A stretch of 33,586 nucleotides of DNA, taken from positions 1-33,586 of the forward strand of contig DAOVXU010000002.1 in the NCBI GenBank assembly GCA_030635995.1, written 5' to 3'. Below the pieces are notes generated by a model, which saw nothing but the letters and a program-made list of their open reading frames with translations, was not told the DNA's origin and made no database searches. A program made the position numbers and the translations under genes. The stretch is from Arcobacter sp. (GTDB lineage Bacteria > Campylobacterota > Campylobacteria > Campylobacterales > Arcobacteraceae). Of this stretch, positions 23,529 to 32,663 are shown in pieces (positions within the stretch are counted from its first letter, which is position 1; every line of letters starts with the position of its first letter).

Positions 23529-25046
23529 ATGAATAAAATGACTAGTAAAATTATTTTAATGCCGCTTATATTTATTTTTCTTATGTCAATTATGGTTAGT
23601 TATACTTATATATATTTAATTAAATTACATCACAATGAGAATATTAGAAATTTTACAGAATCTTATAATGAAGAACAATATAAAAAAATCAAAAATAATG
23701 TAGATGGAATTAGAAATACAATTAGTTATGCAAATAAAATATATGATGAAACTCAATCAGAATTAAAAGCAAGAGTATTAAGAAGAATTAATCATATTAA
23801 TATGATAAACACACCTTATGTATTTATTTTAAAATTAATAAATATTAACGGTGGAGATAATTTTGCTAAAATAATTTTTTATAACAATAAACCACAGGCA
23901 ATAGGTAAATTTATTTCAGATAGTAAAAAAGACATTAATAATAAATATTTTTTAAAAAAAGTTTTAAAAGATATAAAACAAAAAGGTTATTCCTATGTTA
24001 TATATAAACATGCTAAACCAAATAATAAAAATATAAATAAAAAACTTACATATTTTTATCTTGATAAAAAATTTAATTGGATAATCACAAGCAGTATATT
24101 TCTAGATGAAGTCAATACTGATATAAATAAAAAAAATAAGAAATTTGAAATGCAGATTAAAAAATTAATTCAACTAACTGTCTTTATAACAATAATATTA
24201 TCTTGTATACTTGGTATTATATCTTATTTTTTCTCCAAAAATATATCTAAACAAATAGAATACACAAAAGAAAAGTTAAAAATTAATGTAGCAAAAGAAA
24301 TAGAAAAAAATCAATTAATAGAAAAACAACTTATTAAATCAGAAAAAATGGTAGCAATGGGAGAGATGATAGGTAATATAGCTCATCAATGGAGGCAGCC
24401 ATTGTCTGTAATATCAACAGCATCGACAGGTATTATTATGCAAAAAGAGTATGGTGTATTAGATGATGATAAACTTATAAAAACTTGCCATGCTATAAAT
24501 GACAATGCACAATATCTATCAAAAACAATAGATGATTTTAAAAATTTCATTAAAGGGGATAGAACTAAAGAAATTTTTAATTTAAAAAATGGTATTGATA
24601 GTTTTTTAAATTTAGTAGAAGGCTCAATTAAAAATTACAATATAAATATAATATTAGACTTAAAAAAGAATATTGAAATAAATGGCTATGAAAATGAATT
24701 AATTCAATGTTGTATAAATGTTTTTAATAATGCAAAAGATGTTTTAGTAGAAAATAATATTGAAGATAAATTAATATTCTTATCAATTTATAAAAAAGAA
24801 GATAAAGCAATTATAAAAATTAAAGATAATGGTGGTGGAATACCTGATGATATACTACCAAAAATATTTGAACCCTATTTTACAACTAAACATCAATCCC
24901 AAGGTACAGGACTAGGACTTCATATGACTCATAATTTAATTGTAGATGGTATGGGTGGAACTATTGAAGCTACAAAGCAAACTTATACTTATGATGATAA
25001 AGAATATACTGGTGCTGAATTTGTGATAACTTTACCACTTAATTAA
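23529..25046 (+). CDS. Membrane sensor histidine kinase with Cache-type periplasmic domain
   Basis: Two TM segments around a Cache-like region; MGEMIGNIAHQWRQPLSVIS H-box; DNGGGIPDDILPKIFEPYFTTK...GTGLGLHMT ATPase motifs. ATG at 23529 follows GGAGG. Confidence 0.88.
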   Translation: MNKMTSKIILMPLIFIFLMSIMVSYTYIYLIKLHHNENIRNFTESYNEEQYKKIKNNVDGIRNTISYANKIYDETQSELKARVLRRINHINMINTPYVFILKLININGGDNFAKIIFYNNKPQAIGKFISDSKKDINNKYFLKKVLKDIKQKGYSYVIYKHAKPNNKNINKKLTYFYLDKKFNWIITSSIFLDEVNTDINKKNKKFEMQIKKLIQLTVFITIILSCILGIISYFFSKNISKQIEYTKEKLKINVAKEIEKNQLIEKQLIKSEKMVAMGEMIGNIAHQWRQPLSVISTASTGIIMQKEYGVLDDDKLIKTCHAINDNAQYLSKTIDDFKNFIKGDRTKEIFNLKNGIDSFLNLVEGSIKNYNINIILDLKKNIEINGYENELIQCCINVFNNAKDVLVENNIEDKLIFLSIYKKEDKAIIKIKDNGGGIPDDILPKIFEPYFTTKHQSQGTGLGLHMTHNLIVDGMGGTIEATKQTYTYDDKEYTGAEFVITLPLN

Positions 25047-25312
25047 AACAACTTCTCAACAGCTTTCATTTTTTTAACTTCATCAACCTTAGCATATCTC
25101 AAAGTTTGATTAATATCTTTATGATTTAATAATTTCTGAACCAAAAATATATCATTGTATAAAACACAGTGAGTAGCAAATGTCTGGCGTAACGTATGGT
25201 GGCAAACTTTATTTTTTTCATCATCAGTTTCAATTATTAAATAAATCATCATCTGGCGTGTGGTTACCTGGACAAGGACAATATAGAGAAATTTTATCAA
25301 TTTCAAATACAA
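25043..25312 (-). pseudogene. Tyrosine-recombinase/integrase C-terminal remnant B
   Basis: Integrase-like part is about 25043-25250: [52 protein letters not shown], with the R..H box and catalytic-Tyr context. No N-terminal half; upstream coding runs into the serS-tail copy. Confidence 0.82.
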
Positions 25313-28793: not shown

Positions 28794-29480
28794 ATGATAA
28801 AAAAGATAATACAAATTTTTCTAGCTATTTTACTGTTTACAATAAAAAAGATATTTGTTAGAGAAAACAGAGTACCGCATAAAATAATGGATAACATTTC
28901 TAATAAATTACATTCTATTTTTATTTTTACCTCTTTTCCTGCACTTTATTTATTGTGGTTTGATATTTATATAAATTTATTTTCTTTAAATACGGCAATA
29001 TATATATTACTATTTTTCCAGTTTGTAATGATAATAAGATATTTTAATCCACTAATGTTAAAAGAGAAGAAATTACAGATTGGTATTATTGAAAAAATTA
29101 AAAAATTATCTTTATTGATTTTTATTTTTAATTGGATATTTTTATCTTTTGGTTTAGCTTTTTCATTTATTATTATAACTTTTTTAAATAATGGGTTTTA
29201 TCTATTTATAATTAACCAGATAAAAAAACAAAAAGAACAAGAAGAGTTTAAAAAACAATTTGGTGATGGTGATTTTTCAAAAGAAGATATTGTTAAAAGA
29301 CATATTTTAAATCTATTTGAATCAGATTTAAATGTTGAACAATTAACAAGAGGTGAAATAAAAAAACAATATAGAATAATGGCAAAGAAATATCATCCTG
29401 ATGTTTATAAGGGAGATGAAAAAAATAAATTTACATCTATTAATTCATCTTATAAATTTTTAATTGATTTGGTAAAATAA
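28794..29480 (+). CDS. Membrane-anchored protein with C-terminal J-domain
   Basis: Hydrophobic N-terminal region and C-terminal EIKKQYRIMAKKYHPDVYKGDEKNKFTSINSSYKFL with an HPD motif. Confidence 0.8.
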   Translation: MIKKIIQIFLAILLFTIKKIFVRENRVPHKIMDNISNKLHSIFIFTSFPALYLLWFDIYINLFSLNTAIYILLFFQFVMIIRYFNPLMLKEKKLQIGIIEKIKKLSLLIFIFNWIFLSFGLAFSFIIITFLNNGFYLFIINQIKKQKEQEEFKKQFGDGDFSKEDIVKRHILNLFESDLNVEQLTRGEIKKQYRIMAKKYHPDVYKGDEKNKFTSINSSYKFLIDLVK

Positions 29481-29511
29481 TGAAATTTTTAGATATTAAA
29501 GTGGTTTAAAT

Positions 29512-29757
29512 ATGATTACAATAGAAATAATTACAGAGTTTTTAGGTTGGTGTTCAATAATTAATATAGGGATGTTAATGTTATCTGCAATATTACTAGT
29601 GTTATTTAATGATACTATATTAAATATTCATATTAAAATGTTTAATTTAGATAAAAAATATTTGCAACAAACATATTTTAAATATTTAGCACAATACAAA
29701 ATTATAATTATAATATTTAATATTGTTCCATATTTTGTTCTAAAAATAATAGTTTAA
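29512..29757 (+). CDS. Small two-TM membrane protein, unknown
   Basis: 81-aa ORF with two hydrophobic helices downstream of the J-domain gene. Confidence 0.45.
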   Translation: MITIEIITEFLGWCSIINIGMLMLSAILLVLFNDTILNIHIKMFNLDKKYLQQTYFKYLAQYKIIIIIFNIVPYFVLKIIV

Positions 29758-29907
29758 TTATTATTTTTAGGCACTTATTCTTTTCATTAATCCTTTAGTG
29801 GGAATCTTTATAACATTTTAAAGTTCTATTTAGATAATGACAATATTTTTACAAAATAATTGAGGTTTTATTATATTAATCATATAAGCTTAAATTAATT
29901 ATATAAG

Positions 29908-29916
29908 TGATAATAT
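29908..29916 (+). promoter_or_regulatory. Candidate extended -10 promoter (TGATAATAT) for the riboswitch transcript
   Basis: Motif match placed so that transcription would start just before the riboswitch. Confidence 0.4.
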
Positions 29917-29921
29917 TTTCA

Positions 29922-30012
29922 TACAAGCTTAATTGTTAAAGCCAAACTTATCGCGAGGTAAGGACGGAAAGCTACGGGTCTTAAATTTAAGATAGCCGAG
30001 TTGTCTTGATTA
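29922..30012 (+). promoter_or_regulatory. c-di-GMP-I (GEMM-I) riboswitch aptamer
   Basis: AAAGCCAAA-CTTATC-GCGA-GGTAAG-GACGGAAAGCTACGGGTCT..AGATAGCCGAGTTGTC matches the GEMM-I pattern: GNRA-capped stem, ACGnAAAGC, CGGG, and AGnUAGCCGnGUU. Confidence 0.88.
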
Positions 30013-30040
30013 TATTCAATATTTATGCGACTTGACTATT

Positions 30041-30063
30041 CTAAATTTTGACCTAAAATTTAG
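30041..30063 (+). promoter_or_regulatory. Hairpin overlapping the ribosome-binding site of the 60-aa ORF
   Basis: Perfect 9-bp stem CTAAATTTT / AAAATTTAG (loop GACCT); its 3' arm runs into AGGAG (30062-30066), 6 nt before the ATG at 30073. No U-tract follows. Confidence 0.65.
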
Positions 30064-30072
30064 GAGTAAATT

Positions 30073-30255
30073 ATGATTAATCAACAAGAAATAAATTTCT
30101 TTAATTCAAATTCTAAGTCATCAACATACATCAATAGAGATAAAAAAGATTGCAACTGGAGTTTTTCAAAAAAGAATATAAATAATAGTAATAATATATT
30201 TAGTATAGTCACAATATTTGTATTTACAATATCAATAATAGCCTATATAATATAG
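30073..30255 (+). CDS. 60-aa micro-protein with C-terminal transmembrane tail, unknown family
   Basis: AGGAG RBS 6 nt upstream; MINQQEINFFNSNSKSSTYINRDKKDCNWSFSKKNINNSNNIFSIVTIFVFTISIIAYII; directly behind the riboswitch. Confidence 0.7.
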   Translation: MINQQEINFFNSNSKSSTYINRDKKDCNWSFSKKNINNSNNIFSIVTIFVFTISIIAYII

Positions 30256-30275
30256 TAATTTATTTATAGGTAAGT

Positions 30276-32663
30276 TTAAAAACTTACCCATTCATCAGAA
30301 TCATTGTTTGATACAATTTCTTTTGGTGATATAGTTTGCTTTAGATTTTTTGACTTTACTGCTATATTTGGTTGTACAATTTGTTTAGAGTTAATTCGTC
30401 TTTGATTTTTTTTATCAATAGCTACATCTTTTTCTCTTTTATCTTTTATTTGTAGTATTTCATCTTTTGCTTTTACTGTATCTTTACCAATAAAATTCTT
30501 TTCATTAGCATCATTCACAATATCATGTGCAATCTTTTGTGTCTGAATTGATATATCTTTTGTATGAGAGGCAACACTTGCATTTTTTTGTGTTTGTTGA
30601 TCAAGCTTACTAATTGCATCATTAATTTGCTCAATACCAATTTGTTGCTCCTTACTTGCCATCTCTACATCTGATACAAGTTCTAATGTTTTAGTGATAG
30701 AATTATTTAGTTGAGTGTAGCCAGCTATCATCTCATCTGCAATTAATTTACCATCATTTGCTTTATTTGTTGCATTTTGAACCAATACTTTAATCTCATT
30801 AGCTGCTTCTGCACTTCTTGAAGCTAGATTTCTAACCTCTTGAGCAACTACAGCAAATCCTTTACCAGCTTCACCAGCTGTTGCTGCTTCAACTGCTGCA
30901 TTTAAAGAAAGTATATTTGTTTGGAATGCTATTTGATCTATTATACCAATAGCATCACTAATAGCATTTACTTCATTATTTATAGAATCCATAGCTGTTG
31001 TAGTTTGAGTTGCTAAATTTTGACCTGTATTTACAGAATCCTTTACTTGACTTCCATGACTTGCCATATCATTAACAGTATTTGTATTATTTATTATATT
31101 TGCTGTTATCTCTTCTAGTGCAGCTGCAGTTTCCTCTAAAGATACGGCAGTTTCATTTGATGCAGAGTTTAAAGTAGCGACATTTGTCATTAAAACATCT
31201 GAACTTGACTGAAGTGTTAGACCATTTGATTTATTTTCAACTAACATTTTATTTATAATATCAGCTAATGAATTTAACTCTTTAGCAGTTTGTCCATTAG
31301 TGTCTTTTATTCTATGTGTAAAGTTTAAATCATGAAATTCTTTTAATATCTCTCTTACTTTATTTAAATCATCTGCAACTACATGTGATATAGCTTTTAG
31401 CATTTCATTAAAGATTGTTTTTAACTCTTCTAAACCTTCATTTTGAGTTGAGGCATTTATAGTTTGTTTTATATGTCCATCTTTTACAAGATTTACAACT
31501 CTTTTTACATCTATTATAACTGCTTCATCTTGCTCTATAAGTGATTTTGTTTTAGTTATATTTTTATTTACAACTTTTGCCATTGTACCTATTTCATCAT
31601 TTGAATTATCATCTAATTTTATCACCGATGATGATTCTTTATTTAGATATTTAAAAAATCCTAATATTCCATTTTGAAATAGATTAAGTGGATTAATAAC
31701 TATTTTTTGCACAGATATTGATATTGCTATTAGGATAAATATCACAAGAAATACTATAATTAAAAGAGCAATATTAATAATCTTATTGGCACTATTAACA
31801 GCCATATTTACTTTTTCTAAAGGTGATCCTACTATTGCAATTCCTAGTTTAGTTCCTCTAAAATCTTTAACATCAATATATGTGTATAAAAATTTATCTG
31901 TTTCAAATCTTTTTGTTTTTAAAAATTGAGCCATATTTAAATTTTGTGCATCTGCTAAAAACTTTTTATCTATAAATTTTTGAGAAATAATATAATTAGT
32001 TTTAAAAATACTAGTTTGATTAAATGTTTTTACTGATGATACTCGTTTATCCATTAGCAGTATAAAGCCATCTTTATTTTTATTAAATGCTTTTGCAACA
32101 CTATTTAAACCTTGCATAAACTCCAATGACCCTAGATGTTTACCACTATTTGAAGTAACAGGAACAACAGAACGAAGTGATAATCCAGCTTTTCCTAGTT
32201 CAAAAGTATTTACAGCAGTTTTTGTTTGATTTACCTTTACAATAGAGTGTCTAAAAGAACTTAGATCATCTCCAAATTTATCAAGTTTCCATATTCTTAC
32301 AAATGATTTATTGTCTTTTGTATGTACATGTACTTTTACATTTTTAAATGGTGTTGATGACTTTAAACTTTTACCAAGATTTATTAAACTCTCTATAGCT
32401 ATTTTTCTATCATTTTTTTCTAGTGATTCTTTTATTTTCCCATCATTTGCAACAGAAACTGCATTTGATATACCAACATCTTTTTTTAATTGAAACTTAT
32501 CATTTGTTTCTATCTGTAAACTTTTTATAAATTGAGCATCTACTTCATCTTCTATTTGAATTGAATACCAATTTAATAATAAAAATCCAAGTAGAAGTCC
32601 TACCGCAGAAATACCAACTACAGTATAATTAAGTTTTTGACCTATCTTTTTATTTTCAAACAT
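30276..32663 (-). CDS. Methyl-accepting chemotaxis protein with dCache-type sensor and C-terminal WxxF tail
   Basis: TM-double Cache-like-TM and signalling tip [51 protein letters not shown]; ends DSDEWVSF. Confidence 0.93.

Follow-up and report, generated by a model that had tools for sequence, protein, structure and literature searches.

The usual targets of c-di-GMP riboswitches are genes for enzymes, pili, adhesins and flagellar components, whose roles are assumed from the gene names. In Clostridioides difficile, Cd1 lies before flagellar genes and is a c-di-GMP OFF switch that acts via transcription termination. Vc2 of Vibrio cholerae works at translation, as an OFF switch that hides its ribosome-binding site, according to the passage of PMC9262584 that cites Inuzuka et al. 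2018. The locus described here lies in a stretch of 33,586 nucleotides, analysed as a whole (the window). It shares with Vc2 the aptamer class and the predicted output, in which the ligand hides the Shine-Dalgarno (SD) sequence, and differs in its target, a lone microprotein, and in its predicted unliganded state, a 25-bp helix that takes up the greater part of the aptamer 3' half. With Cd1 it would share motility-state logic and the lowering of expression by c-di-GMP, whereas Cd1 combines transcription termination with a flagellar operon and the window combines the lack of a terminator with a single small target. The elements of the locus are, from 5' to 3':

29909-29914, + strand: candidate -10 box (GATAAT, with a T before it), read from the sequence about 17 nt 5' of the aptamer; weak.
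29932-30009, + strand: c-di-GMP-I (GEMM-I) aptamer (RF03167, 62.9 bits; RF01051, 65.4 bits).
29941, 29967, 29968 and 30004, + strand: aptamer landmarks G20, G46, A47 and U92, respectively (Vc2 numbering).
29976-30004, + strand: switching strand, from the P3 5' strand to nt 92, which in the minimum-free-energy fold joins the anti-aptamer helix without ligand.
30027-30054, + strand: anti-aptamer strand (GCGACTTGACTATTCTAAATTTTGACCT), in the same register at three related loci (L022, L002 and L003).
30039-30065, + strand: SD-masking hairpin, with 9 perfect pairs (30041-30049/30055-30063), or 12 including G-U pairs.
30062-30066, + strand: Shine-Dalgarno AGGAG, read from the sequence.
30073-30255, + strand: 60-aa tail-anchored microprotein with the head Y..R.KKDCNWSF.K and a C-terminal membrane helix at residues 39-59.

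The coordinates and anatomy that an earlier sequence-only reading had given for the riboswitch, hairpin and ORF are right, and the GEMM-I aptamer that it proposed is genuine. Scored alone, RF01051 matches significantly at 65.4 bits (cut-off 35 bits, E 9.6e-13) over model positions 1-87 of 87, while in a cmscan of the window the c-di-GMP-I family aptamer at 29932-30009 (+) is the sole Rfam match above its gathering score (RF03167, 62.9 bits, E 9.4e-13). An RF01051 search found no second aptamer in the 1.78-Mb Campylobacterota assembly. The candidate -10 box is rated weak because the region is AT-rich; it is absent from the sigma-70 site list, in which the nearest upstream + strand site is at 29848-29877.

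By the ungapped alignment that provides the Vc2 numbering, the window aptamer retains the pocket bases G20 (29941) and A47 (29968), together with a GNRA-type P2 loop (GCGA) and the P3 receptor segment. Its description as near-consensus has to be qualified at two places: pocket base 92 is U (30004) and not the typical C, although C92 is not strictly required, and the P2 pair C21-G46 replaces G21-C46. Among the 69 Campylobacterota aptamers tallied, G46 is found in all 69 and position 92 is C in 66 and U in 3, the rare natural U92 occurring in the window (L001) and at L071 and L103, three otherwise unrelated loci. RF03167 is the top-scoring clan member in the window scan, and despite a score above its cut-off of 59 bits we dropped membership of this "GGC" family: its model has a consensus G at position 47, whereas the window has A47 (and U92), so the label is unsuitable. 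An aptamer of the C21-G46 type is also present on contig CAMYOD010000040.1 (L081), in a bin labelled Gammaproteobacteria, with its 3' part recurring as an inverted copy just downstream (GGCGGCCCGGCTGT).

The leader between aptamer and ORF can adopt two mutually exclusive structures. Positions 30041-30063 read CTAAATTTT-GACCT-AAAATTTAG and contain the perfect 9-bp stem that had been noted over AGGAG, CTAAATTTT (30041-30049) pairing with AAAATTTAG (30055-30063), whose 3' arm runs into the SD; when the aptamer is forced to form, this hairpin lengthens to 12 bp, covering A62-A65 of AGGAG. In the unconstrained minimum-free-energy fold, 29976-30004 instead pairs with 30027-30054 through 25 pairs (21.2 expected pairs), and this anti-aptamer helix excludes both the aptamer and the SD-masking hairpin. 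Three further genomes of the bacterial family encode relatives of the microprotein (55-59 aa; together with the window protein, family A), each preceded by the same riboswitch, and the unliganded leaders there form the helix in the same register with 24 (L022), 26 (L002) and 27 (L003) pairs. Compensatory changes are found at offsets of -21 (A-U/G-C), -17 (U-A/G-C), -15 (A-U/G-C) and -11 (U-A/C-G) from nt 92. When the downstream leader was dinucleotide-shuffled, the observed pairing was matched by 0, 11, 4 and 2 of 1000 shuffles for the window, L022, L002 and L003, respectively.

Forcing the aptamer helices lowers the mean SD accessibility from 0.61 to 0.04 in the window, from 0.23 to 0.03 in L022, from 0.40 to 0.11 in L002 and from 0.64 to 0.34 in L003, drops that were equalled by 0, 1, 5 and 8 of 100 shuffles, respectively; the shifts are modest in L002 and L003, where the SD sequences are irregular. 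The cost of forcing the aptamer in the four leaders is 4.2-8.3 kcal/mol, which a ligand of nanomolar affinity might pay. The folding is purely thermodynamic, without ligand, tertiary contacts or co-transcriptional kinetics. As in Vc2, aptamer formation in these computations exposes the SD-masking strand, and it does so in the same direction in all four leaders. No terminator-like site was found in 29700-30400, which places control at translation.

The calculations point to a translational OFF switch, which we regard as likely, whereby c-di-GMP would halt synthesis of the microprotein in the cell. At low c-di-GMP the aptamer 3' half (29976-30004) would pair with the downstream leader (30027-30054) and block the SD-masking hairpin, allowing synthesis of the microprotein; once c-di-GMP is high, the aptamer would close on its ligand and release the downstream strand, which would fold into the hairpin that buries AGGAG and stops translation. 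The c-di-GMP-gated membrane peptide of the earlier reading thereby acquires a predicted direction, OFF at high c-di-GMP through masking of the ribosome-binding site. An ON switch, in which c-di-GMP would unblock the ribosome-binding site and sessile cells would make the microprotein, would fit the ability of GEMM-I aptamers to work both ways (PMC9262584 sets an OFF switch against the ON switch of a related cGAMP aptamer) and the Flp pilin leaders of the same bacterial family (L009, L029), for which no drop in SD accessibility is predicted; it is nevertheless unlikely for the microprotein, given that 4 of 4 leaders shift OFF-ward in the calculation and that the anti-aptamer helix and the hairpin over AGGAG cannot coexist. 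We restrict the OFF model to family A, because the leaders of a group of 68-80 aa proteins (L016-L020) lack the same anti-aptamer fold at minimum free energy. In genome G051, where GEMM-I aptamers also precede flagellin and Flp pilin genes, the flagellin leader is likewise predicted to be OFF (SD accessibility 0.45 to 0.18) and the Flp leader is unchanged.

The product of the switch is a 60-aa ORF (ATG at 30073, stop at 30255) with one hydrophobic segment from residue 42, and AlphaFold returns a single confident helix (residues 39-59) preceded by a low-confidence head, in keeping with the C-terminal membrane tail originally described. The four proteins are built alike, with a basic head that carries Y..(R)..K.C/W.(N/S)WSF.K and a helix at the C-terminus. 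No charged residue lies beyond the hydrophobic tail and the head is net positive, so by the positive-inside rule the head is probably cytoplasmic. From the sequence, the protein is thus probably inserted by its C-terminal helix with the basic head and its conserved WSF motif in the cytoplasm. Family A does not fit the Flp/Tad pilins, the most frequent known target in the bacterial family: its helix sits at the very end of the chain instead of on the N-terminal side, and it lacks a prepilin-type N-terminus with its G ahead of the cleavage site.

The suggestion that the peptide acts on adjacent chemotaxis machinery was not supported. The chemoreceptor next door (dCache_3 + MCPsignal, 30276-32663) is on the opposite strand and convergent, and different genes flank the other three loci: an sfsA-like gene precedes L002 and L003, whose downstream neighbour is an AAA ATPase or a moaC-like gene, and L022 is flanked by a lipoprotein-like gene and by RNase HII (genes named from their translations). 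The link was rejected, and with different surroundings at the four loci the nearby chemoreceptor probably stands there by coincidence. Elsewhere in the window, 28794-29757 (+), 5' of the riboswitch, encodes a membrane protein with a C-terminal DnaJ domain and then a DUF6868 small membrane protein, and 25043-25312 (-) holds a frame like the C-terminal part of a tyrosine recombinase (...LNHKDINQTLRYAKV), apparently a remnant.

Flagellins are encoded in 4 of 4 family A genomes, and the most parsimonious guess is that the microprotein has its role while cells are motile and c-di-GMP is low. In that state, motile or planktonic, it probably serves a membrane complex as a small regulator or as a partner. 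Its size, basic head, single membrane helix, lone gene and patchy distribution would also suit a type I toxin-like small hydrophobic toxin or a membrane-depolarising peptide that the riboswitch silences at high c-di-GMP. Such a function is rather improbable: the conserved head sequence (WSF.K) suggests a specific partner, PADLOC, PHROGs and phage or plasmid records gave no match, and no antisense RNA was identified, the antisense promoter-like hits that did appear being expected of AT-rich DNA. As the conserved microprotein is the sole gene in its unit, its phenotype could be followed free of operon effects.

Base 92 of the GEMM-I aptamer pairs with one guanine of c-di-GMP. U92 may weaken ligand binding; natural GEMM-I variants at pocket positions including 92 have reportedly retained c-di-GMP binding. 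The genome of the window encodes 18 GGDEF domains, and c-di-GMP is therefore very likely made. Our reading of the sequence is that the aptamer would operate in the cell as a weaker but working c-di-GMP switch. It is very unlikely, in our estimate, that U92 has altered the ligand to another cyclic dinucleotide (e.g. cGAMP, with its adenine facing U92) or abolished useful binding. This idea draws on the pairing of position 92 with one ligand base, on the scarcity of U92 among the tallied aptamers and on the Vc2 G20A/C92U mutant, which binds c-di-AMP (PMC7288161, PMC9049102). The window, however, retains G20 and A47, relatives encoding the same protein have C92, GGDEF domains are many in the genome, and the Vc2 C92U mutant itself has been crystallised (PDB 3MUR and 3UD3, as the structure listing in PMC10671752 gives them). 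The natural U92 pocket is a convenient case in which to test the tuning of riboswitch affinity.

On sequence grounds, family A is a small, conserved, undescribed protein family, so far seen only behind a GEMM-I riboswitch. A profile of the four members finds them at E 5e-22 to 2e-26 among 107 genomes of the bacterial family, the next match lying at E 0.0015 with in-frame stops. These E-values come from a profile that contains its own matches, and a leave-one-out test was added, in which a profile of the three relatives alone ranks the window ORF first among the non-training frames (4139 ORFs; 19.7 bits, E 1.6e-4). The score of the window protein was reached by 0 of 1000 shuffles that kept head and tail composition, and the same was true of the other three members, which bears out conservation of the ORF behind GEMM-I in related genomes. 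Family A is present in 4 of the 107 genomes, and the profile search of these genomes found none away from a riboswitch. In the sole close pair, differences at codon positions 1, 2 and 3 number 13, 13 and 23, mild evidence of coding.

A class-wide profile search of 388 genomes gave no credible new member; the sub-threshold matches in G245, G382 and G415 contain internal stops and were rejected, as were the hits of a single-sequence search of 60 relatives, which yielded noise only (in-frame stops or partial matches in longer frames). A scan with the aptamer pattern re-found three loci and added two, L080 and L081, which carry other targets. The earlier statement that the protein belongs to no recognised family stands: matches in Pfam, NCBIfam and PHROG were all sub-cut-off or chance-level, and no relative was found in PADLOC or the PDB, a family match being taken as one above a curated cut-off or, where no cut-off exists, with a convincing E-value. 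That the ORF is untranslated or functionless, the RNA purely regulatory or the riboswitch a relic has in its favour the small number of members (four), their divergence (31-39 % identity to the window protein) and the failure of the microprotein search to find any in other species of the window's genus, and is highly improbable: each member is recovered in the leave-one-out test (0 of 1000 shuffles), SD and start keep their positions, and the conserved switch acts on that SD.

A lone microprotein as the direct target of a genuine GEMM-I aptamer is thus supported, and a survey of the bacterial family shows how far the pattern extends. RF03167 and RF01051 each detect 29 aptamers in 20 of 107 genomes, with targets that include family A (4), a 68-80 aa hydrophobic family (6), Flp pilin (6), a 79-84 aa single-helix family (3) and peptides of 33-40 aa (3). 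Small non-pilin membrane proteins are the target of 16 of the 29, so that the "unusual target" of the earlier reading is true of the riboswitch class at large and not locally. Outside the family, aptamers in members of the bacterial class mostly lie before secreted, sensory or lipoprotein-like proteins. The preference for lone small membrane proteins is thus local; it renders the window less exceptional than the earlier reading supposed, and the overall pattern of more interest; no published description of this pattern was found in the literature searched. Tentatively, and with the odds somewhat against it, we suggest that in this bacterial family much of the riboswitch-borne c-di-GMP output passes through several unrelated and undescribed lone membrane microproteins, at least family A being translated only at low c-di-GMP, and that each may tune a membrane machine of the motile state. 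Family A and the other small targets suggest that membrane microproteins form a level of c-di-GMP signalling that is so far unexplored.

Several of the other target groups have features of their own. In genus g9, six aptamers (L016-L021) precede the 68-80 aa hydrophobic proteins, which carry the motif FF.WS.P...LN...RE/DIF..NVL; the one member tested (L017) had no Pfam or NCBIfam match above cut-off. Aptamers in genus g12 (L005, L011, L013) lie before the 79-84 aa single-helix protein, which ends in YW.GGKF-like motifs and at L013 is directly followed by a 70-aa paralogue. At L014, L023 and L025 the aptamers precede solitary hydrophobic peptides of 33-40 aa (MRTFKQGIKKSLLLTAFSIMLIVSMNLYAGILV), after which no long same-strand frame follows. 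In G051 (C18:5382-5838), three GEMM-I aptamers (L006, L026 and L028) fall within 460 bases: a tandem pair precedes a 133-aa secreted-like protein, and the third, which is divergent, a flagellin-like gene.
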